From an uncultured Candidatus Peregrinibacteria bacterium (GTDB taxonomy: Bacteria; Patescibacteriota; Gracilibacteria; Peribacterales; Peribacteraceae): 64,000 bases of DNA. The notes beneath the pieces are model-generated. The model was given only the letters and a program-made list of their open reading frames with translations. It was not told the origin of the DNA and did no database searches. This document shows positions 35,218-49,379 of the stretch, piece by piece. Positions within the stretch are counted from its first letter, which is position 1. Each line of letters opens with the position of its first letter. Position numbers and translations under genes: made by a program. Where the stretch lies: contig CAINVY010000003.1 of the NCBI GenBank assembly GCA_903854335.1, positions 1-64,000 of the forward strand. The letters run 5' to 3'.

Positions 35218-35862
35218 TCAACCGTGAGCCAAAACCAACCCCTGCACCACCCGGACTCCTGCTTTCTTCAAGGTCATCGCACACTCTTCGAGTGTCGCAC
35301 CGGTGGTCGAAACATCGTCGACGAGAATGACGGATGCAGGAAGCTGTACACCGGAGTGGACACGGAAACTGCCACGCAGAGCCGCTAGCCGATCCTGTCG
35401 CTTCCTCCTCACTTGCGAGCCCGTCGGACACACGCGACGGAGGAGTTCCACCGCCTTCCATCCCCTCTCCCTCGCGACGAATGCCGCGAGCATCTGCGAC
35501 TGATTGAACCCCCGCGAAAACTTCCGCGACCAGTGGAGCGGAACCGGGCAGAGGACGGGCTCGTCCTTCGTATCGAGCAATGTCGATGCGCCGATCAGCA
35601 CCGCCGCAAGCTCCTCCCCCATTGCGCGAATGCGACGATACTTAAACGTTGCGATGGCGCGACGCAGCAGCGGGCTCTCGCGGTAATTCGTCCCCGCGAC
35701 GATACGATCGAGAAAACGCAATCCGAGCTGTCGCAGCACCTGTGTGTCCAGGATCTCCGGTTGTGATACGAGCCCAAGCCGCTCCGAGGCGGTCATCCAT
35801 TCCCCCTCCGTGCCTCTCAAAGACCGCCTGGGGAAAAGATAGTCGAGAAGTGCATTCCACAT
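35218..35862 (-). CDS. ComF family phosphoribosyltransferase-like protein
   Basis: 214 aa; LLDYLFPRRS, VLCPVPLHWSRKFSRGFNQSQMLA, VILVDDVSTTGATLEECA; the N-terminal Cys zinc motif seems absent. Confidence 0.9.
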   Translation of the reverse strand: MWNALLDYLFPRRSLRGTEGEWMTASERLGLVSQPEILDTQVLRQLGLRFLDRIVAGTNYRESPLLRRAIATFKYRRIRAMGEELAAVLIGASTLLDTKDEPVLCPVPLHWSRKFSRGFNQSQMLAAFVARERGWKAVELLRRVCPTGSQVRRKRQDRLAALRGSFRVHSGVQLPASVILVDDVSTTGATLEECAMTLKKAGVRVVQGLVLAHG

Positions 35863-36057: not shown

Positions 36058-36134
36058 GGGCAATTAGCTCAGCTGGCTAGAGCGCCACATTGACATTGTG
36101 GAGGTCACTGGTTCAAGTCCAGTATTGCCCACCA
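36058..36134 (+). tRNA. tRNA-Val(GAC)
   Basis: GGGCAAT/ATTGCCC acceptor, anticodon arm CCACA-TTGACAT-TGTGG, T arm CTGG-TTCAAGT-CCAG, encoded CCA. Confidence 0.95.
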
Positions 36135-37801
36135 GATCTCTTCTTCTTTCCGAAGACATCCTCAATATCCTCTTTGGTTAGCCCCTTTGTGGTTCTACCC
36201 TTTTTCGGTAGGCTCGCGAACTTCTCAGGTACAAATCGGAAATAATACTGCACGGTGATATCCCACTTCGTTCGCTTCCCACCTGTTTCCCTTGGAGTTC
36301 GATCGAGTTCGACGCGGTCAATAAACAGATCAATCAGAATCTTCTTCTGTTTTCGACCTAGCTTGTCCAAATTGTATTTCACCGTCTTCGCTGCGCTCCT
36401 CAGTCCTTCGATCTCCTGTTCTTGTAGACCTGCCACTAGAAGCTCCTTCCCGATATCCTCGATTCGCCCTTCGATACGGTCAACCTCCTGCTGAACCGCC
36501 GCAGTCTTCTCGCTCGCCCTCTCGGCTCCATAAACACCATTGTCATATCCTTCCTCAATACGCTCCATTTTCAACTCCAGATTTGCCTTCTTTTCTCTCA
36601 ATTTCAGCAATTCCTCATCCATATCCTCCAAGCGGCTTTTTCCGTAGCGCTCATAATTGAAATACTCGCGGATGAACACTTCCGGATTCTTCAACGCCAA
36701 TTTCACCCGCCCCCATGCAGCTTCTTCAAGAGGTTCGGTTGGAACCTCGAAAACGGGATACTGCTTTCCATCCTTCTCAAACTGCTTCCTTCGGTAACTC
36801 CTCCCCCCCTTCATGCGGGGCTTGCCGGAGAACTTGGGGTGATGTGGCAAGGAAACATCATAGATCTTCCCTGAGAGCAGATACGTATGATCCGTCGCTG
36901 TCTTTGCCTTTCGGGTAGTGCGCTTCTCCTGAGCCAGATTCCATGTCATTTCCGTGATGCAGGGAGGTATGGCAACGATCGTCCATTCCTCTTCCGGCAA
37001 CGCGTTTCCTTCCTCATCTTTCGTTACCGCCGCAAACTCTCCTCGATAAAGAGAGTTTTGGATCATGTCTTCAATATGATGCACCGTCCATTTCCCTGCC
37101 CCCTTGCGTTTGTAGTACGCACTCTGTGGTACCCCCATATCGTTGAGCCGTGTCGCGATCTGTCCATATCCCATGTCCTCATATACGTACCAATGAAAGA
37201 TCTTCTGAACCCGCTCCCTCTCTTTTGGGATGATCTCTAACTGCGTCCCTTTCCCGGAAGGATTCTTGATAGGCTTATACCCGTAAGGGATGCGCGTGCC
37301 GGTGTAGTTGCCCATCTCTGCGGATGCCACAATTCCCGAACGTGTTCGGCTCTTGATGAGTTCTCGCTCAAATTGAGCAATGGCACCGAAAATCTGAAAA
37401 ATGAGATTCCCAATGGCTCCATTGAAGTTGATATTCTCCTGGAGAGATATGAAGCTGCATCCCGCCTTCTGCATACGCTCGAAAACCTCCAGCAAGTGCT
37501 TCAAGCTGCGCGAGAGACGGTCAATCTTCCACACGAGTACCGCGTCGAACTTCTTCTCGTCTACGGCCTTCAAAAGTTTTTGCAAACCAGCCCTCTCAAC
37601 CTCCGATCCCGTGTGCACGTCCTCAAAGATCCACTCCTGTTTTGTCTCAAGATTGAGGGCTTTGTTTTGCTCCACATACTCTAAAAGGCGCTTCCGCTGC
37701 GATTCCAGACCATAACCGTCCATTTTCTGTTCCTGAGTAGAAACACGAATGTAAATGGCAACGCGCCGCTTCCTAGCCATGTCTTGTGATTGAATCTCCA
37801 T
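36113..37801 (-). CDS. Large serine recombinase / integrase
   Basis: 562 aa; VAIYIRVSTQEQKMDGYGLESQ, AVLVWKIDRLSRSLKHLLEVFE, GRTRSGIVASAEMG-type region, recombinase and zinc-ribbon-region coiled coil. Confidence 0.95.
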   Translation of the reverse strand: MEIQSQDMARKRRVAIYIRVSTQEQKMDGYGLESQRKRLLEYVEQNKALNLETKQEWIFEDVHTGSEVERAGLQKLLKAVDEKKFDAVLVWKIDRLSRSLKHLLEVFERMQKAGCSFISLQENINFNGAIGNLIFQIFGAIAQFERELIKSRTRSGIVASAEMGNYTGTRIPYGYKPIKNPSGKGTQLEIIPKERERVQKIFHWYVYEDMGYGQIATRLNDMGVPQSAYYKRKGAGKWTVHHIEDMIQNSLYRGEFAAVTKDEEGNALPEEEWTIVAIPPCITEMTWNLAQEKRTTRKAKTATDHTYLLSGKIYDVSLPHHPKFSGKPRMKGGRSYRRKQFEKDGKQYPVFEVPTEPLEEAAWGRVKLALKNPEVFIREYFNYERYGKSRLEDMDEELLKLREKKANLELKMERIEEGYDNGVYGAERASEKTAAVQQEVDRIEGRIEDIGKELLVAGLQEQEIEGLRSAAKTVKYNLDKLGRKQKKILIDLFIDRVELDRTPRETGGKRTKWDITVQYYFRFVPEKFASLPKKGRTTKGLTKEDIEDVFGKKKRSGGQYWT

Positions 37802-38249
37802 GACTAGATTCTACCCTTCGTACATGAGTAATCCAATTAGGCATGTTATGCCTTTGTTTTCTTCAATCCATTGAATAAACCTACATATTGCATTGCCTGC
37901 GCAATCTCAAAAAGATACCCTTTAGGATTCTCCTCTGGGTAGAGATATTCAAAACGAAATATGTTTCCGTGCGAGGTCGTATATGATCCCCCATTTTGCT
38001 CATCGAAGGCTTCTTCTTTGGCGAACCCCTTGTTGCGCTGATCGTGAGTCTTCTGGATAACAGAAGCTCCGTTCCGACGCCGAGGATGAAGCAGCCTGCT
38101 TGAAATCCCCTATTATAGAGCGGAACTTGCATTTTATGTAAATAGTGTCCCCAGTGTACTCTGAGGATAGAGGAGCACTGTTTTTTGCTGTGCGTAGAAC
38201 AAAAAGTCGAAATGAAGAACGTGTTGACGGAGATGCCTTCTGACTTGGA

Positions 38250-38432
38250 TCATTTTTTCATAAAAATGAAAAGGACGAAAAGTAACATGCCAAATACGAT
38301 CGACAACGCCGCCGCGCCTGCGATCAAAGTTGAAACAAGAACCGCTGACCTTTCGTTTCGGAGAAAGGGCGGTATGCTTTCCTCGATCCCATCGTTGTAG
38401 GCGTATTCGCTTACGACCCGGCTTACCCGCAA
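38250..38432 (-). CDS. Small single-TM protein (60 aa)
   Basis: MRVSRVVSEYAYNDGIEESIPPFLRNERSAVLVSTLIAGAAALSIVFGMLLFVLFIFMKK; clear TM, but overlaps the inverted-repeat arm. Confidence 0.4.
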   Translation of the reverse strand: MRVSRVVSEYAYNDGIEESIPPFLRNERSAVLVSTLIAGAAALSIVFGMLLFVLFIFMKK

Positions 38433-38507
38433 ATCAGAGCAAAAAGGGGCATCCTGCCTCTGGTCATCGCTCTGATAGGCGGGAAACCGCTTACAACGAT
38501 GGGATCG
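38384..38507. repeat. 16-bp perfect inverted repeat enclosing further stems
   Basis: CGATCCCATCGTTGTA (38384-38399) / TACAACGATGGGATCG (38492-38507); inner ATCAGAGC/GCTCTGAT and CGG..CCCGC/GCGGG..CCG pairings. Confidence 0.85.
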
Positions 38508-38551
38508 CCATGCGGGGTGTCCCTTCTTGTGCGATTTCTTCTCTCATCGTT

Positions 38552-39532
38552 ATGAAAAATATGCGATTCCTCTCATGGATACTGATCCCAACATTCTGCT
38601 TTTCTATCTTTGAGGCAACTGCCGCGCAGCCGCAAAATATGACCAAACTGACGCCTCAACAGAGAGTTGCCCTTCGTAAGTCCTTGCGACTACAAAGGCA
38701 CTCAGGCTCACCTGTAACTCAACAATCATCGGCATCCTCCGTTTCCAGTTCTTCATCGTCTTCGGTGCAGTCCATGTTTCTTCCCTACTGTAAGAAATCA
38801 AGTGATGCACAGTGGAACTGCAACGATTGGTCTGCGTGTTCTTATCACGAAGGTGATGAACTAGCATGGCCTCCCACACAACCGACATGGACGCAGACTG
38901 GCTACTGCTATCCCGCCGACGGCAGCACATGTCGTGGTCGCATTAGCCCCAATGTCCGAAACTGCACGCCAACTACCGATGAACAACAAGCTCAAGATGC
39001 TCAGCAGCAACAACAGACACAGCAATACAATCAACAACAAGCAGCGCAGCAACTGCAACAGTTACAGCTCGATACACAGCACAATTACAAGACCATGACA
39101 GACAATCTCACGAAGATGAACAGCCAGCTTCCTTCGTTCGAGGGGGCAACTTCATTGGAGCTATTTTCCGTTGTCAACAAGTACACGGATGAAGTATCGA
39201 AAATGAAAGTGTACGTCGATGCCATCTACCAGTTGCAACTGTCAGACCAACCTGCGATCAACAGCATCGTCGATGCTACCAATACACTCGTCGATCAGTT
39301 CAATACCATTGCCGGATCCGCAGCCGATCTCCAATTACAACAAGTCCAGGAAGAGAATCAGCAACTAGAGCAGCAGCAACCGCAACAGCAGCAATCGCAA
39401 ATTGACCAGCAGCTACAGGCGCAGAAGCACAAGCAGGATTGCGCCAACCTACGAACATTTCTTTTCGCTCGTTATGGTGCCTTTGGATCGTCAGAAACAA
39501 TGGATCGTTACCACCAGGCTGGTTGTCCATAG
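38552..39532 (+). CDS. Secreted Gln-rich protein with Cys-containing WxCxDWSxC module
   Basis: Signal peptide MKNMRFLSWILIPTFCFSIFEATAAQ; poly-Ser; WNCNDWSACS...CRGRISPNVRNC; long Gln-rich coiled region. Confidence 0.75.
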   Translation: MKNMRFLSWILIPTFCFSIFEATAAQPQNMTKLTPQQRVALRKSLRLQRHSGSPVTQQSSASSVSSSSSSSVQSMFLPYCKKSSDAQWNCNDWSACSYHEGDELAWPPTQPTWTQTGYCYPADGSTCRGRISPNVRNCTPTTDEQQAQDAQQQQQTQQYNQQQAAQQLQQLQLDTQHNYKTMTDNLTKMNSQLPSFEGATSLELFSVVNKYTDEVSKMKVYVDAIYQLQLSDQPAINSIVDATNTLVDQFNTIAGSAADLQLQQVQEENQQLEQQQPQQQQSQIDQQLQAQKHKQDCANLRTFLFARYGAFGSSETMDRYHQAGCP

Positions 39533-39559
39533 GGATGTCTCAACTCCGATCTCGGCACT

Positions 39560-41152
39560 ATGCTATCTGGACAAAACCAAAGGCTGAGACCGAGCGACAT
39601 TCGTCAGATGTTGGAAGAAATACAGCGACGATTGCCCGAGAGACCCACGGCAGTCGATGAGCCTTTCGTCGTACCGGAACGTTTGATGAAATCATCATGG
39701 GTCAGTTCCTCCAATATCTCGTTGCCATCGAAATCGCTACAAGAAATCGCGAACCTCATGGCTGCATATCTTGGAATCATCACGCCGGTAGAGGTTAGAT
39801 ACGTGAACACATCCTTCGGAACAGCAGGAACATATCGCGTCTTGGGTCACTCGTACCGAGTCATAGAAGTGGCAGCAACGAACTCGGATTTCAATGTCGA
39901 TCAGATCCTCGCAACACTCGCGCACGAATCGACTCACCACTACCTTCATGAGCACAAAGTACAAGTTACTGAGATCATGACGGATCTCACCGCTGTGTAT
40001 CTCGGATTCGGTGAACTGTTGTATCGAGGTTACAAGACAGTTGAGCGGTACAGATCACGAACGAAGGTGGGCTACATTCAATGGCAAGATGTCAAACTCG
40101 CAGTACAGATGGCGGTGGAAATGAGGGGATGGAATATCCCTTTGCGACCATGCCCATTCTGCAAGAGTCACATTCGCCATAACATAGAGCAGTGTCCTCA
40201 CTGTCATCGTATTCTACGAGAACATGTAGAGCGGAAGGAAACGGTACCGCAAGCACCGCCGCATCGACAGAAGCGCCGACACATCACGTTCCTGAAAGAC
40301 AACTTTGCGTACTGGTTATCGAAAATATGGGATCATTTTTTATACATCGAACTTGCGGCAATGGGGCTGCTCGTTCTCCTCGGTTTGTATTTGGCTCACA
40401 ACCAGTCACTTCGCCAATCCTCCGATGTTCCTCTTCCTGTGGTCACGGAAGCCGTGAAGCAAAGTGAAGATGGGTTCGGTTCTCAGCCAAGAGAATATGG
40501 AAACATATTTCAGTCCGTTGGCTCTGCTCTCGCAAGCAATGTGCAGAGCGTCGCGACATTTCAGGGTACGAAACTCGACTACTTGGGAAGAACCGTAAAC
40601 GAATACAAATACGACAATGCGGATCTGGACATAGCTCTGTTCCAACAAAAATGGGATGCACTCAAGAGCGAATACGACCTGCTCCGAGTAGACCTTGAGA
40701 ATGGGAATGTGCAGGATCGAACGAATGTCCTCAACTCCTTCAAGACCGATCTCTTCTTTTGCGCCAACGAACTTTGGGACAGAGCCTATGAAAACGACCA
40801 GATCGAAACGATCTCACAATTACAAACGGATCTCTCCACAATCATCCATAGCCCTCCTTTCGCTCGGTATTTGCAGGAATCACAGCTCTCACAACCCGCT
40901 TTCGATGTGCTCAGTGGCATGACTGATTCCATTGGATTCCTGAGAACAAAGTATTCCCTGAATCTTCTGGAACGTAATTTACAAACGTGCCGCTCCAATC
41001 CAGATTGTTCCGATGAGAAGCAACTCGTGGATCATTTCAATCAGCTCCTGCCTGACTACAACTCGAACATCAACGATGCTTCTACGATGTTCTCCCAGTT
41101 CATGAAATTGGTGGATGTGTATCTCCTCTTCCCCGGGCAAAATACTCTTTAG
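39560..41152 (+). CDS. Membrane-anchored HExxH metallopeptidase-like protein with zinc ribbon
   Basis: 530 aa; LATLAHESTHHYLHEHKVQVTEIMTDLTAVYLGFGE, CPFCKSHIRHNIEQCPHC, TM IELAAMGLLVLLGLYLA. Confidence 0.7.
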   Translation: MLSGQNQRLRPSDIRQMLEEIQRRLPERPTAVDEPFVVPERLMKSSWVSSSNISLPSKSLQEIANLMAAYLGIITPVEVRYVNTSFGTAGTYRVLGHSYRVIEVAATNSDFNVDQILATLAHESTHHYLHEHKVQVTEIMTDLTAVYLGFGELLYRGYKTVERYRSRTKVGYIQWQDVKLAVQMAVEMRGWNIPLRPCPFCKSHIRHNIEQCPHCHRILREHVERKETVPQAPPHRQKRRHITFLKDNFAYWLSKIWDHFLYIELAAMGLLVLLGLYLAHNQSLRQSSDVPLPVVTEAVKQSEDGFGSQPREYGNIFQSVGSALASNVQSVATFQGTKLDYLGRTVNEYKYDNADLDIALFQQKWDALKSEYDLLRVDLENGNVQDRTNVLNSFKTDLFFCANELWDRAYENDQIETISQLQTDLSTIIHSPPFARYLQESQLSQPAFDVLSGMTDSIGFLRTKYSLNLLERNLQTCRSNPDCSDEKQLVDHFNQLLPDYNSNINDASTMFSQFMKLVDVYLLFPGQNTL

Positions 41153-41205
41153 ACAACGAACGAACCGGATGTTCGCTTGAATAGCAACAACTCACTGGCC
41201 GGACA

Positions 41206-41421
41206 GTGACTTTCTCATCGCCAATCCAACGACTTGACCGAACTAGGACTATAGAAATCAACTACCAAACGGCCAGCAGAAGGCAAATGCTCCACGCAAT
41301 CCTGCCTTTCAAATTAGCACTCATCAACTACCGAGATGCTCTTCTGAGAATGAAAGACATGCTCGAATGTAAAGCGGAGATGGATTCGCAGAAAAGTTTG
41401 CAGATGTCGTTGTTCGAGTGA
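41206..41421 (+). CDS. Small hypothetical protein
   Basis: 71 aa, 11 bp upstream of the HD gene in the same orientation; no family recognised. Confidence 0.45.
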   Translation: MTFSSPIQRLDRTRTIEINYQTASRRQMLHAILPFKLALINYRDALLRMKDMLECKAEMDSQKSLQMSLFE

Positions 41422-41432
41422 TAGTGTGAGGC

Positions 41433-42197
41433 ATGAAAGCCAACTCACTCACCCCTCGTCTCCGCGACGCGCTAGCAATGGCGACGCGGGTTCATGCTGA
41501 CATGAAACGAAAGGTTGATGGGCAACCGTATATCGTCCATCCTCTCGCGGTCTTCAAATGGCTCCAGGAGCGGGACGCAGATGAGGACACACAGATCGCA
41601 GGCCTCCTGCACGACGTGCTGGAAGACGCACCGTCAGAGAAGAGAGAGACATACCGTAAGGAAATCGAGGAAACGTTCGGCTCCGGCGTTCTTGCGCTTG
41701 TGGAGAGCGTTACAGAGGAGGACAAGAGTCTTTCGTGGCGGGAACGGAAGGAGCGCTATCTTGAACGCCTCAAGGGCGCTGAACGCCCGTCTCTCCTTAT
41801 CGCGTGCGCCGATCTCATTCACAACACCCAGAGCCTCCAGACGAGCCTTGCGACGGAAGGAGAAGCCGTCTGGAGCAAGCTGAACGCGCCGAAGCAACAG
41901 CAACTCTGGGTCATTGTCCAGACTATGGAATTGCTAACCGAGAAGTTGGGAGGAAGGTACACACTTCCACTCCGTCCGTGTATTCCTGCTATCTCGATGC
42001 ACCCTCCACGAACAGAGTGCCTCTGGTTCAATTATGACGACCCCTGGGACGGCACAGAAGTGACATGTCCGGTGTGCGAATGGAAAGGCGTCGTCCGGGA
42101 CGGAGACATGTCCACCTACGACACGCTGCTCGATTTCTCCTGCCCCGTCTGTGAGGAGATCCTTGTTATCGTGCGATTCCCTAATCGAGAGGTATGA
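41433..42197 (+). CDS. RelA/SpoT-type HD hydrolase with C-terminal zinc-ribbon-like cysteines
   Basis: YIVHPLAVFKWL, AGLLHDVLEDAP, ACADLIHNTQSL (HD); CPVCEWKG...FSCPVCEEIL (4 Cys). Confidence 0.8.
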   Translation: MKANSLTPRLRDALAMATRVHADMKRKVDGQPYIVHPLAVFKWLQERDADEDTQIAGLLHDVLEDAPSEKRETYRKEIEETFGSGVLALVESVTEEDKSLSWRERKERYLERLKGAERPSLLIACADLIHNTQSLQTSLATEGEAVWSKLNAPKQQQLWVIVQTMELLTEKLGGRYTLPLRPCIPAISMHPPRTECLWFNYDDPWDGTEVTCPVCEWKGVVRDGDMSTYDTLLDFSCPVCEEILVIVRFPNREV

Positions 42198-42204
42198 TTC
42201 CATC

Positions 42205-42540
42205 ATGCAAAATACTGACGACCAAGTTTCGGTATCGAGAGAGGGAAACAATATTTTCATTCGCATTGACGAAACAATTACCCTTCACGAGATGGTTGGT
42301 ATGAAGAAAGTTGATCCCCATCGAAAGGGACGCAAGAAGGTATTGCAAGAACAGAAGATTGGTGACGACTTTCACCGTAAATCAAAATCTTGGCGAAAAC
42401 TTGAACGTGTCATCGACCGAGAGAATAACAGGTACAAGGAAACGGTGACCGACTCCTCAGGAAAGGTCCTACTTTCCTGCGACGAGCCTCTCAGCGAACA
42501 CAGAGAGCATGGTAATGCGAAGAATATACATTCTCAGTAA
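42205..42540 (+). CDS. Conserved-looking small hypothetical protein
   Basis: 111 aa from MQNTDDQ; HRKSKSWRKLERVIDRENNRYKETVTDSSGKVLLSCDEPLSEHREHGNAK. Confidence 0.6.
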   Translation: MQNTDDQVSVSREGNNIFIRIDETITLHEMVGMKKVDPHRKGRKKVLQEQKIGDDFHRKSKSWRKLERVIDRENNRYKETVTDSSGKVLLSCDEPLSEHREHGNAKNIHSQ

Positions 42541-42632
42541 GAGGATCATTTCCACGAGGTCGTTGTTCCAATTCGGTTCTGGGTGTAATTTGACAACTGC
42601 CTTTGGCACTATACTTTCTTACGGGCTGGCAC

Positions 42633-44099
42633 ATGATTGGACAAACAATCAAAGGTGAACGTGGCCTCACGGTAACCATTGAACGAGAGATCGGTAACGG
42701 TAGCTTCGGCACAGTCTTTCTTGCTGAGGGAAAGGACAAACAGAACTACGCCGTAAAAGTCATTGCACCCGTAACAGACAATGCGGTGCGGCTATCTTTC
42801 CGTAAGGAGATTGAAAGTACCTTCGGATTGAAACACGAGAATCTCCTCATTCCTCTCGATGTTGGAGTTTGCTCAGTTGGATCAAATGAGGGACTCTTCA
42901 TGATCAGCGAGTATTGCGCCGGAGGAGATTTCCGCGCAGAAGTGTCGAGCTACGCTGTGGCACCACCAGCCACGGAGATAATTTCAGGAAAGTTCATGCA
43001 GATTCTTTCCGGTCTTTCAGCGCTGCATACGCGAGCGATACACAGAGACATCAAACCAGAGAACGTGCTAATCAGCGGAGGAGGAATCTTGAAACTATGC
43101 GATTGTGGGCTAGCAAAGTTTGTGGACGAGGCCACTAGAACGCTAACGTTCAAGGGAGGGGGCACGCGCGATTACATGGCACCCGAGGTATGGAAGGTGG
43201 AATCCGTGAGCCCTGCAACTGATCTATATGCAGTAGGGGTTATGATCTTCGAGGCCTTCACGGGACAAAGACCTTTCCCTACGTCAGATGTCACCCTTCT
43301 TCGTGAGATGCACATCAGTAAGACTGCGCCGAGAGCCCGTAACCTCAATGCGAAGGTGCCGATGCACATTGATGGAGTAATTGCCAAACTGCTCTTGAAG
43401 AACCCACGAGACCGCTTTCAGACCGCTCAAGAAGTCATGGATGCTATGCGCGAGCCTCCTCCTGCGACTACTCAGGCCTCCTCCCTTGCTGAGCGGATGC
43501 GCCGCCATAAAGATGCAGAAGAGCAAAAACGCACGGAACGTGAACGTGCTACGGAAGAGCGGCAAAGAGAAGAGGCTCGTAGCGTCGATCATGAGCAAGG
43601 AGTAATCAATCTCATTGATGGTGTGGTTGAGCAGGTCAACGCGCAATCACCAGACGTTCGCATCACGAAGCAGGTTTCCCATGGAGGAGGTGCAATCTAT
43701 GGTTTTGGCAATCGCTCGCTACACGTCGAGTTTTTTGCCAAGGGCGCAATGTTGAAGCCAGACCCACGAGCGCCTGGGCTTGCCGAGGAATTGAAGAAGC
43801 GCCACGTCACGCACGGTGGGAACCTGAGCATTGTGGAGAATGGCGAATTACGGGAAGGATGGAACATAGCTCTCATAACGCCTCCTGATACACCTGCCGA
43901 GTGGAAGATCGTTGAGACCCGTATGTCTCCATTTACTGGCCGAAGGTATAACTACGAACCTACACCAACAGATGCCCCCACGTTCGCAAAGAACCTCGCC
44001 TATCACTTTATGAAATCGATGCACACCCATAACTTGAAAGACCAACCTCTGACAAGAGAAGAAGTAGAAATGGTGCTGACTCACCTGATTCCTGAATAA
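42633..44099 (+). CDS. Serine/threonine protein kinase with uncharacterised C-terminal domain
   Basis: REIGNGSFGTVFLAEG, YAVKV, IHRDIKPENVLISGGGILKLCDCGLAKF, GGGTRDYMAPEVWK, DLYAVGVMIFEAFTGQRPF; ~170 aa C-terminal domain. Confidence 0.9.
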   Translation: MIGQTIKGERGLTVTIEREIGNGSFGTVFLAEGKDKQNYAVKVIAPVTDNAVRLSFRKEIESTFGLKHENLLIPLDVGVCSVGSNEGLFMISEYCAGGDFRAEVSSYAVAPPATEIISGKFMQILSGLSALHTRAIHRDIKPENVLISGGGILKLCDCGLAKFVDEATRTLTFKGGGTRDYMAPEVWKVESVSPATDLYAVGVMIFEAFTGQRPFPTSDVTLLREMHISKTAPRARNLNAKVPMHIDGVIAKLLLKNPRDRFQTAQEVMDAMREPPPATTQASSLAERMRRHKDAEEQKRTERERATEERQREEARSVDHEQGVINLIDGVVEQVNAQSPDVRITKQVSHGGGAIYGFGNRSLHVEFFAKGAMLKPDPRAPGLAEELKKRHVTHGGNLSIVENGELREGWNIALITPPDTPAEWKIVETRMSPFTGRRYNYEPTPTDAPTFAKNLAYHFMKSMHTHNLKDQPLTREEVEMVLTHLIPE

Positions 44100-44132
44100 G
44101 TACGATTCAGCGAGTGGCTCTATGAAGATGGT

Positions 44133-44714
44133 TCATCGATGTTGTCTGAGATACCGAAGGATTTGCTCATGGGCTTCTTTGATTGGGAGCTTCTCATTGA
44201 AACGAAACTGTTGATTGAGTTGCTGTGACTTCTGCTCAGATAGTCCAACAAAATCAGCAAGTACCCGCAGTGCTGCGATTTTGTCCCACAATTTGATTTC
44301 ATGAACCTCAATCTCTTCCTCCCCGGCAACGCGACGTACTTTGATGGACGCTATCGCACGTCTAGTACGTTCGGGAAGTGCGCTCACCGGCTTCATTCGA
44401 GGAGTCGCTCCATCGAAGTCCATAATGTCACCAATATCGCTGAATCCGACACTGGCAAGTTCTGCAACAACATGTGCTAGATCCACCTTCGCTTTCTCCA
44501 GTTCCGGCTTCCGTAGCTCCTCGATTTTCGCCAAAACCTCAGCATTTCTCAGCAACCTACTTGCTTGCACCTCCAACGAATGGTCTTCACCGTGATAACC
44601 CGCCGCCCTTGCTGCTCCCTTTCCATTCGCAGATTTGGCGTATTCACAAGCGAAGCGAAGCTGCCGCATCGTAAGTGTATGTTTGTTGCCTCCAGAGTTC
44701 TTGGACTTACTCAT
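44133..44714 (-). CDS. Terminase small subunit-like protein (TerS/Terminase_2-like)
   Basis: 193 aa; LTMRQLRFACEYAKSANGKGAARAAGYHGEDHSLEVQASRLLRNAEVLAKIEEL, VLAELASVGFSDIGDIMDF-type, EIKLWDKIAALRVLADFVGL. Confidence 0.75.
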   Translation of the reverse strand: MSKSKNSGGNKHTLTMRQLRFACEYAKSANGKGAARAAGYHGEDHSLEVQASRLLRNAEVLAKIEELRKPELEKAKVDLAHVVAELASVGFSDIGDIMDFDGATPRMKPVSALPERTRRAIASIKVRRVAGEEEIEVHEIKLWDKIAALRVLADFVGLSEQKSQQLNQQFRFNEKLPIKEAHEQILRYLRQHR

Positions 44715-44946
44715 AGACTCAATACGAAACAGGGATTTCTACCCCTCCACTCGCCCTAGTAATTCCGGAAAGAGTCAGTGGCTTCCTGATCTCCTTCGCT
44801 ACGACCCGAAAACTGCCTCCCGTTTTTGCCTTTTCCTCAGGCGAAAGACGCTCGTGCACCAGGGAGAGCGAACAAAGGAAGAAATTGTACCCGCCGTACG
44901 GTTGCCCACCAAATTGGAATCGCGAGGTCGAGAATGGTGCGCGACC

Positions 44947-46242
44947 TTAAGAGCCAAGCACGGAAGCGGCAGCGTCGGTTTTTTGTCCGAACGCCTCGGA
45001 GACGAGCGCTGCGTGCGCATCCATATCACCGAAATCATCCTCACACTGGCTCATAAGGAACGGATCCTGCTTCGCCAATTCAACGACGGTTGGAAGCTGA
45101 GCGGGAGGCCACAATTCAACGCTCGCGGTATTCGCAAACCATTCGGCAACCTGCTGCCTCGCTTTTTCCACCTCATCTTTATTAAATCCCTCCGTATCAA
45201 AATTATCGATGAACGCGTTGACGACGCGCTTCCCCTCGTCGAAATCCATCTGTTCCACCTGATCAAGCTTACCGGCGTCATATTTGGCGGGACGATAGGA
45301 CAGAAGCAGCTTGATCGCCTTCGCATCGGAAGAGAGCGCGGGCTGGAGGTGCGGAGAGATGAGTTTTCCGTCTTTCATGCGAAGCATGATGGTTTTCGCA
45401 CCGGTGCGGCCGTGAGTTACCAAGCGTTCCTTTGTATAGCGAATGGCATCTTCGTCTGAAGCCTGACCAATGAATTCCGATTCGAGAATCGTTCCCGCGT
45501 GGCCTCCGGGTCGATCAAGAGTATTCTTTGCGTTTTCTTCGGCCTGTTTCGCCATCGCGGCATACAGCAATGTCATGATGCCGTGGCCTCTGTACCCAAA
45601 CGCTTTGCCGTAATTATCTTGCATGAACTTATCGTCGGCACTTCCAGTGTACTGCAAGTAGGTGATGGCTTTATCGCTGCCCTTGAGGGGGATGGTGGAA
45701 AAGTGATGGATTCCGACCACATTGCGATCTTTTTCCAATCCATAAATCACATCGAAACATCCTTTTGGTCCGCGGCGTTGAGCCTGGTCTCCCAATCTTT
45801 CTCGAACGAGAGCATTCGGCTCTCTTTCGTTGGGATCCGGAAAGAGATGCTTGAAGAGTTCGAGACCTTGTCCGAGTACACCCGGAGCCTGCTCCTCGGG
45901 ATCATTGCCAACGAGAACGACTTCATGAACAAAGCGACGTGCTTCCTCTATGCGCCTCCGTTCTTTCTCATGGCCGATGTGTTCGTCGCCAACATTCAAC
46001 GTGTAGAGACCCTCCTTGAAAGTTGATGGCGGAGCGTCAGTCACCTTCCAATCTTTATTTGGTTCATCTTCGGATTCCGGTTGCGTCGCGGTAGCCTCGA
46101 AATTTGTATGAATATATGATTTCCCACCGACAAGCGCTCTGCGTAGGGCAGCACGGCTCTGCATGCGCTCCTGTGATAAACCCGATCCTTTAATCGGACG
46201 CGGTGAGACATCAGGACTGGTGGGTATATTTGTATTTGTCAT
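44947..46242 (-). CDS. Hypothetical protein with GNAT-like segment
   Basis: From MTNTNIPTS; GYRGHGIMTLLYAAMAKQAEENA resembles a GNAT acetyl-CoA site. Confidence 0.6.
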   Translation of the reverse strand: MTNTNIPTSPDVSPRPIKGSGLSQERMQSRAALRRALVGGKSYIHTNFEATATQPESEDEPNKDWKVTDAPPSTFKEGLYTLNVGDEHIGHEKERRRIEEARRFVHEVVLVGNDPEEQAPGVLGQGLELFKHLFPDPNEREPNALVRERLGDQAQRRGPKGCFDVIYGLEKDRNVVGIHHFSTIPLKGSDKAITYLQYTGSADDKFMQDNYGKAFGYRGHGIMTLLYAAMAKQAEENAKNTLDRPGGHAGTILESEFIGQASDEDAIRYTKERLVTHGRTGAKTIMLRMKDGKLISPHLQPALSSDAKAIKLLLSYRPAKYDAGKLDQVEQMDFDEGKRVVNAFIDNFDTEGFNKDEVEKARQQVAEWFANTASVELWPPAQLPTVVELAKQDPFLMSQCEDDFGDMDAHAALVSEAFGQKTDAAASVLGS

Positions 46243-46342
46243 AAATATTTTGGTATGTGAATAATATACACATTGTACATGTTTTTTGTTAATAGTCAAT
46301 GTTAATAATTGCATAGTATGTATTTTATGTTATAATGACATT

Positions 46343-47215
46343 ATGAAACAAAATGAGGTTCCGCCCAATAATGAGCAACCTGCGGACAAAAAGGATGTCG
46401 GAATCGAATCCTTTGTCCCACAGGACAGTATAAAGGGGAAACTCCGACATCTTCTTTCACATACAACAGAAATGCACGAGACCACTCAAGCTCATGGAGA
46501 AGCGCATCGCAATACCCCTCCTCCGATGGCTGAAGCTCTGCAGAAGCCAAGGAGCATTGCCGACATGCCTTCGCCAAAACATGTATCAGAGGAAGTTTTG
46601 GTGGAGAGCTTCGGGAAACAGATGCTCACTCAATTCAAAGAAGTGGGAGGTTTGTACAAACAAATATGGGAGAATCCTTCATTGCTGAAGAATGCGCTGT
46701 TCGAGCTCGCTCGCGATTGTGTCTTGTTCCCACGAAGCTTGTACAGAGCGTGGCGCTCGAAGAAGACGAATGTTGACCCTGCAGAGACACTGAAAGAGAG
46801 CGCATCGCTTGCGTTGACCACAAGTGAATTTACATCGATACCCGGAACATACGCAGGAGTATGTCTGCTCAGCGGAGTATGTTCCATTCCTCAGGTCGTC
46901 GGGACAGTCGGCTCGGCTCTGGGCAATTACTTTGGTGCAGTGATCGGCTACGCCCTTTCCTATCTCCTCCTCTCGAGACGCGTAAAAGGGTATTCGAATA
47001 AACAATCATTCATTGATTCTACGAAGGTTTTTCGAGACTGTCTTCCTCCCGCGCTTGCACTCTACGTCGCAGATGCCCCCTTGATCCTAGCTCTTACGAG
47101 TCTTGGACTGCCTGCGATGGCAGCAGCGGCCGTTGTCCAGGTATTGGGAATGATTCTCTTCCTTGGTGTGGCAAAGGTATCCTCAAACAAAGCGGCTGAT
47201 GCGGCAGTGAAATAA
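46343..47215 (+). CDS. Hypothetical membrane protein
   Basis: From MKQNEVPP; C-terminal TM segments; TATAAT at 46331-46336. Confidence 0.7.
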   Translation: MKQNEVPPNNEQPADKKDVGIESFVPQDSIKGKLRHLLSHTTEMHETTQAHGEAHRNTPPPMAEALQKPRSIADMPSPKHVSEEVLVESFGKQMLTQFKEVGGLYKQIWENPSLLKNALFELARDCVLFPRSLYRAWRSKKTNVDPAETLKESASLALTTSEFTSIPGTYAGVCLLSGVCSIPQVVGTVGSALGNYFGAVIGYALSYLLLSRRVKGYSNKQSFIDSTKVFRDCLPPALALYVADAPLILALTSLGLPAMAAAAVVQVLGMILFLGVAKVSSNKAADAAVK

Positions 47216-47280
47216 GAGGAATTTGCGAGTCAGGGTTCTCAGGTATAGCATTCGCCGCTCATTCGATTCCACCAATCTCT

Positions 47281-47535
47281 ATGGGCAACGGTCGATATAT
47301 CCTTGATCAAGCAGATCTTATTTCCGACACTCCGGATCTCCTTGCAGTGATGAACCGAAGAGCGGAAGAAGAGGGATCCTTCAATGTTACAGTGAGAGAA
47401 AGTGGACCATTTGCTGATCTTGAAAGTGTGCGCAAGGCCATCACTCTCCGTTGCTACAGAGTGCTTGATGTAGCTGAGGGTAGATATCTTTCCATCGAAG
47501 AGATTGGGAAAGAAGAAGAGCGAAACCCAAATTAG
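47281..47535 (+). CDS. Small hypothetical protein
   Basis: 84 aa, hydrophilic; only ORF length and composition support it. Confidence 0.5.
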   Translation: MGNGRYILDQADLISDTPDLLAVMNRRAEEEGSFNVTVRESGPFADLESVRKAITLRCYRVLDVAEGRYLSIEEIGKEEERNPN

Positions 47536-47879
47536 TACTAGCACGCTCCAGGACGGCCAGCATTTAAACAACACGAAGGATTCTTGTCCATAGCATGTGC
47601 ATTCCTGCCCTTTCCACCGGAAAGGGACCGTCGAAATTCTGGTTTCCCTCTTTCGCGCTTCCACAACGAGAGAAATAACAAGTTTGATTTTCCGCAAAGT
47701 AAGTCATCTGTGCGCCCAAGCTCGAAGATGTATTTCTTGATACAACTGGCCTTTCAATTAATGAAGATGAAAGATGAGAGATTCTCGTGGTCCAGAGAAC
47801 AACAACTCGGTCCGATCGAACCAGATTATTCCGCTTATATCCGTGCAAAATACGGTCGTACCTGTTACCGTGACATGAC

Positions 47880-48623: not shown

Positions 48624-48902
48624 AAGGGCTGAAGGGATCAACATGGACATCCTAAAAAAATGTTAGATATTTATTGACATCATATTTCAATGCACGCAAA
48701 GTCCGCGAAAGTCTCATTTTGAGACTCCTACGTTCCCCCTCGATCCATAGACTGGACGAGTGAAATCAGGGGCTACGAAGGAAAGGGCAACGCTCCGGGA
48801 TATGTGCTGCTCTGCACGATATGTAATTTCGACAACATTCTTCTGTTATTTGCAACTTTCAAGAGGAGCGGAACTCTCGAATTTCTGCTACAATATACGG
48901 AT

Positions 48903-49379
48903 TTGAACACACAAACTCCAACACCTCGGCTCCAATGGGAAGCACCGACGTTCACACCGCACGAACGTTCCACGCGCTGGTATGTGATCGCGCTGATCTT
49001 CGCCGCACTCCTTGCCGGCTACGGCATCTGGGCGGGAGATTGGACATTCGTCGTCGCCATCATCCTCATCGCGTGCTCGTACTTCATCACACGCAAGAGC
49101 ACGGCCCGCCTACATCGCATTCTCCTCCAAGACGACGGCATCGATTTCGATGGAACGTTCACATCCTGGAAAGACTGCGAGGACTTCTGGCTCATGCAGT
49201 TCCCGACCTACACGGAACTCACGATTCGTAAGAAGAAAGGGCTGGATCGAGAACTCCTCATACAGACCGCGGATCTCGACCCGCAAATCATCCGCGAAAC
49301 AATCAAAGCGTTTCTGCCAGAGCGTTCCGACGGCAACGAGCGATTCATCGATATGTTGATTCGTTTACTGAAGATCTGA
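48903..49379 (+). CDS. Hypothetical membrane protein with two TM segments
   Basis: ORF 48804-49379; a TTG start at 48903 (LNTQTPTPRLQWEAP) looks more natural; TGCTACAAT just upstream. Confidence 0.65.
   Translation: MNTQTPTPRLQWEAPTFTPHERSTRWYVIALIFAALLAGYGIWAGDWTFVVAIILIACSYFITRKSTARLHRILLQDDGIDFDGTFTSWKDCEDFWLMQFPTYTELTIRKKKGLDRELLIQTADLDPQIIRETIKAFLPERSDGNERFIDMLIRLLKI

Follow-up and report, generated by a model that had tools for sequence, protein, structure and literature searches.

The window analyzed here is a 64-kb stretch of a 1.17-Mb genome assembled in 13 contigs. Between positions 41433 and 44099, three open reading frames (ORFs), each starting with ATG, are located on the forward strand, and the same-strand arrangement described in the original prediction is therefore confirmed. 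The first ORF (41433–42197) encodes an HD domain protein of 254 amino acids (aa), the second (42205–42540) a protein of 111 aa, and the third (42633–44099) a Ser/Thr kinase of 488 aa. The intergenic gaps are 7 nt between the first two ORFs and 92 nt ahead of the kinase. The HD and 111-aa proteins are considered to be encoded by real genes because homologs of both exist elsewhere, and the 7-nt gap makes co-transcription plausible, such that these two genes may form an operon. A candidate kinase promoter at 42590 was rejected; its TTGACA and TATACT boxes are too close (14-nt spacing), and a promoter scan lists none at this position.

All three genes lie downstream of a tRNA-Val gene (gac; 36058–36134, forward strand; ARAGORN), which marks the left integration site. 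DNA homology with three related genomes (G002, G003, and G006) ends at the last base of this tRNA gene (36134), and a gene for a large serine recombinase (36113–37801, reverse strand; Pfam Resolvase, 4.5e-39, and Recombinase, 2.3e-16) is located at the junction. The genes that flank the region (35218–35862 and 48804–49379) are directly adjacent in the same three genomes, where the interval lacks all of the island genes, indicating an empty site. In a fourth relative (G001), the right side carries different DNA and similarity begins near 47822. The empty site and the junction in these relatives indicate that an integrated element of ~11.5 kb (36135–47820; GC ~0.49 vs. ~0.55) carries the three genes as cargo; its right edge is uncertain and placed at about 47270–47820. 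The earlier proposal that the genes belong to a mobile island is thus supported. The search for an exact attachment repeat yielded no more than 10 nt matching the end of the tRNA gene, and this match is not located at the right edge.

Adjoining the kinase gene, the element carries a gene for a phage terminase small subunit (TerS; 44133–44714, reverse strand; Pfam Terminase_2, 3.4e-23; phrog_51, 2e-26), and no other packaging gene was identified. This lone TerS points to either a remnant prophage or a phage satellite in a Patescibacterium, and TerS relatives are rare in the bacterial family. The element resembles PICI-like satellites in its size, tRNA integration, recombinase, and TerS. However, it has a serine rather than a tyrosine recombinase, and a Pfam scan of the ten larger island proteins identified no genes for replication, capsid, or satellite regulation. 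Two further island genes may be described. One (39560–41152, forward strand) encodes a protein of 530 aa for which no Pfam family scored above threshold; it combines an HExxH-like motif (HESTH) with a CPFC...CPHC zinc ribbon and a probable transmembrane segment. The other (44947–46314, reverse strand) encodes a 455-aa protein that, among 144 related genomes, has relatives only in G114, as two tandem copies. Genes with many in-frame TGA codons are present in other members of the host's class, consistent with a probable position of the host in the Gracilibacteria/Peribacteria branch of the Patescibacteria.

The HD protein contains all of the motifs originally noted (HDVLED, ACADLIHN, and CPVC...CPVC). 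It matches Pfam HD_4 (2.2e-18), and its best matches in the PDB are RelH of C. glutamicum (7qoc/7qod; E = 1.7e-29), RelH of L. levettii (7qoe), and Lmo0812 (4yf1). MixSpo/RelH is the name for the group formed by these small alarmone hydrolases (PMC10434055). The protein has a single RSH-type HD domain and lacks a RelA_SpoT domain. The metal-binding and catalytic residues (H, HD, ED, D, and N motifs) are complete; H36, H60, D61, E64, D65, D127, and N131 are invariant across 12 relatives, R26 is also conserved, and the catalytic residues align with those of a SpoT-like protein of the same genome. These sequence features identify the HD protein as a small alarmone hydrolase (SAH) that is closest to the RelH/MixSpo type, and its predicted chemistry is very likely alarmone hydrolysis. 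The alignment with RelH/MixSpo proteins spans nearly the whole HD region. However, the window protein differs from them in its location on a mobile element, in having relatives that reside in restriction-modification (R-M) islands, one of them fused to a Zeta-toxin domain, and in its C-terminal zinc ribbon (C212-x2-C215...C237-x2-C240; 42066–42152, forward strand). This zinc ribbon is common to only two relatives (L037 and L038), and a search with it retrieved one weak plasmid match.

The original prediction also compared the HD protein with the antitoxins of toxSAS modules. ATfaRel-type SAH antitoxins of these modules neutralize toxic alarmones (PMC11782079), and an SAH at a mobile, conflict-type locus is a shared feature. 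However, the comparison fails for want of the toxin: a Pfam scan of ten island proteins revealed no alarmone synthetase domain. Because no synthetase was identified nearby, the locus is not considered to be a toxSAS module. Elsewhere in the same genome, there are a SpoT-like protein with intact hydrolase (HD) motifs, a RelA-like protein in which the HD motifs are broken and a GYRSLH synthetase motif is present, and a second SAH on another contig. Given these enzymes, the alarmone substrate of the SAH is probably made in the host cell. Host alarmone enzyme loci include G000:C5:134110-134469 and G000:C11:10043-10318 (L003 and L004), and the intact hydrolase motifs of the SpoT-like protein versus the broken ones of the RelA-like protein point to a division of labor in the host.

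The HD clade has a sporadic distribution among the 144 related genomes. R-M enzymes are found nearby in six of the 11 whole-gene HD loci outside the window, an association that comes from one bacterial family. The relevant neighbors are a type ISP system (L037), a type III system directly upstream of the HD gene on the same strand with a 44-nt gap (L038), type III systems in two other loci (L043 and L044), and an SNF2 helicase with a type IIG methylase in two more (L040 and L041). In L041, a DpnII-like nuclease gene adjoins the HD gene, and in L046, the only such neighbor is a PD-(D/E)XK gene, which has relatives in L041 and L044. In addition, the HD domain of G070 (L041:9766-11115) is fused to a Zeta-toxin domain, beside the DpnII-like nuclease and the IIG methylase. 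No methyltransferase family was detected by PADLOC among 109 proteins from seven other regions, a small control set of equal size that is only roughly matched. These R-M islands and the Zeta-toxin fusion agree with the defense-island setting that had been proposed for the HD protein, and the tie between this SAH clade and R-M islands in Patescibacteria is a new point.

These neighborhoods also bear on the possibility that the genes serve the element itself. The SAH could lower host alarmone levels and the kinase could rewire host proteins, favoring replication, excision, or packaging of the element in the manner of a TerS-bearing phage satellite. The mobile element with its recombinase and TerS is consistent with such host control or counter-defense, as is the finding that large phages also carry HD hydrolases of this type. 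However, the clustering of HD relatives with R-M genes, the Zeta-toxin fusion, the rarity of TerS relatives in the family, and the failure to identify replication or capsid genes among the island proteins scanned all argue against it, and we consider this explanation rather unlikely.

The 111-aa protein has no match in Pfam or NCBIfam. The view that it is an orphan was rejected, as relatives were found by tblastn against plasmids and phages and by profile search. The tblastn relatives are encoded on a Thermomicrobium (T. roseum) plasmid (4e-8), a Rhodococcus plasmid, and one unverified phage contig, and the profile search added members in Patescibacteria and on two prophage contigs. Matches in G154 and G454 were discarded as ribosomal protein L18, and weak matches from Pseudomonadota and a single Saccharibacteria genome are limited to the zinc ribbon. 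The resulting zinc-ribbon/HGSAK family has about ten members. The 10 aligned members all share a block similar to RVIDRENDxYxExVxDxxTGxVIxxCxEPLSEH, most of them end in HGSAK, and a clear N-terminal CxxC...CxxC zinc ribbon is present in six, such that the ribbon is common rather than strictly defining. The window protein was assigned to the family by profile A3 and alignments; it has the C-terminal RVIDRENDxY...EPLSEH block (alignments A2/A3) and lacks the N-terminal zinc ribbon.

Relatives of the 111-aa protein are found in several kinds of conflict loci. In G404, the HGSAK gene is flanked by genes for a CBASS cyclase (PADLOC, 6.6e-68) and an SLFN_AlbA_2 protein; these genes share a strand and are separated by 13 and 6 nt, and a 1TM effector gene (8.7e-47) precedes the cyclase. 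This position resembles CBASS operons with extra genes, although a cyclase is absent from the window. Other members are near an EcoRI-type methylase gene (G311), near HNH and methyltransferase genes (G271), or, in Rhodococcus, near a DUF4062 gene in a plasmid region (L171) with a ThsB-like TIR gene across an insertion sequence. In three phage or prophage loci (L172, L174, and L175), the HGSAK gene is an extra gene ("moron") facing structural genes. The CBASS operon, methyltransferase, and prophage contexts support the earlier suggestion of a defense setting for the 111-aa protein; with a family of about ten members, the association is suggestive only. A narrow literature search found no description of the zinc-ribbon/HGSAK family or of its role in CBASS, and the family represents a second new point, as an uncatalogued gene in defense loci. 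HGSAK proteins may conceivably be a general accessory, acting as an adaptor or trigger sensor that plugs into CBASS, R-M islands, morons, and here a zinc-ribbon SAH, yet we regard this idea as doubtful. Two details of these loci were also observed. A CBASS-like operon in Patescibacteria (L186:6910-10370) consists of genes for a 1TM effector, a cyclase, a zinc-ribbon/HGSAK protein, and a Schlafen AlbA_2 protein. In the P2-like prophage of L174 (4188-5573), a two-gene insertion encodes an HGSAK protein together with a protein of 300 aa that bears a YIDILGF motif; in L175, a related prophage, the HGSAK gene is present and this partner is missing.

The kinase domain (42633–43439, forward strand) matches Pfam Pkinase (6.8e-42) and PknB/StkP-type structures in the PDB. 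Its glycine loop (GNGSFG), K42, D139 of the HRD motif, N144, and D157 are present, with DCG replacing DFG, and by these motifs the kinase is predicted to be intact. The C-terminal part (43488–44099, forward strand; ~170–200 aa), predicted as a long helix followed by an alpha/beta domain, has no homolog in the related genomes, viral contigs, GTDB contigs, plasmids, phages, or PDB. A single-sequence AF2 model of this part (pLDDT 62) has no significant Foldseek match, and the model of the full-length kinase (pLDDT 43) is unusable. The novelty attributed to this domain thus holds across the sequence collections and the Foldseek search. Because the C-terminus is without relatives, nothing can be inferred about the trigger of the kinase.

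Phage-borne defense kinases are established, such as KKP, a prophage kinase module acting as a toxin-antitoxin system (PMC11341870). The window kinase shares with Stk2, PD-T4-6, and PfkA/PfkB of KKP a Ser/Thr kinase domain with intact motifs and a location on a mobile element. However, its match to them is that of a generic kinase domain. Matches to the PADLOC models PD-T4-6 and mad6 are confined to the kinase domain, the best of them ending at residue 289–345, and no similarity to Stk2/PD-T4-6 was detected by PADLOC beyond it, where the window kinase has a C-terminal domain without known relatives. Moreover, every S. thermophilus genome in one survey (PMC11514479) carries a PD-T4-6 annotation, and the PADLOC label is for this reason weak and unspecific evidence. 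KKP also has a phosphatase partner (PMC11341870), whereas none was identified for the window kinase.

The original prediction had combined the three genes into one defense module based on nucleotide or phospho-signaling, in which the kinase would be the toxic effector and the SAH and 111-aa protein would set or sense the signal. The adjacency of the three genes on one strand, the 7-nt gap between the first two, the defense genes near HD and 111-aa relatives, and the precedent of prophage kinase modules such as KKP are compatible with this reading. However, a second genome that contains all three genes, or any two of them, was not found among the 144 relatives or in the other collections searched. 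Within those relatives, neither the 111-aa protein nor the kinase C-terminus ever accompanies the HD clade, and the 111-aa family never occurs with an HD or kinase gene in the loci examined. The 92-nt gap ahead of the kinase and the failure to identify a phosphatase or synthetase partner also argue against a joint system. The single-cassette reading was rejected for this lack of co-occurrence, an outcome that the original prediction itself had named as refuting it, and a single three-gene system is accordingly judged improbable. Even less probable is that these are ordinary stress-response genes, gained by chance and without any role in conflict. Both SAHs and PknB-type kinases commonly serve as housekeeping enzymes, and another SAH is encoded on a different contig of this genome, but the sporadic distribution, the island location, and the R-M and CBASS neighbors of relatives argue against this explanation.

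Taken together, the explanation that we moderately favor is that the ~11.5-kb element carries separate, neighboring conflict modules, which are probably antiphage or inter-element in function. A serine recombinase would have placed the element at the 3' end of tRNA-Val, and the three genes would be independent modules that became neighbors by chance. The SAH may remove the 3'-pyrophosphate of (p)ppGpp or (p)ppApp and thereby limit alarmone that accumulates in infection or is produced by the synthetase toxin of a rival, with its zinc ribbon as a putative targeting or partner-binding part. The 111-aa protein, encoded 7 nt downstream, may be co-expressed with the SAH and serve as an adaptor or regulator that lacks catalytic activity. 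The kinase may be a stand-alone effector of the Stk2/KKP kind, in which the C-terminal domain would sense the trigger. How the 111-aa protein works and what triggers the kinase are guesses, whereas a defense role is a reasonable inference from the gene neighborhoods. SAHs also work in ordinary stress physiology, which is a counterweight to this reading, and a role of the cluster in defense or inter-element conflict is only slightly favored.

If these assignments are correct, current catalogs of the defense repertoire would miss an SAH clade that resides in R-M islands of Patescibacteria, as well as a family of small zinc-ribbon proteins that recurs in CBASS and prophage loci. The tempting three-gene module should be treated as a chance neighborhood until a second example is found. 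Both of the missing parts, the SAH clade and the HGSAK family, are short and directly testable.
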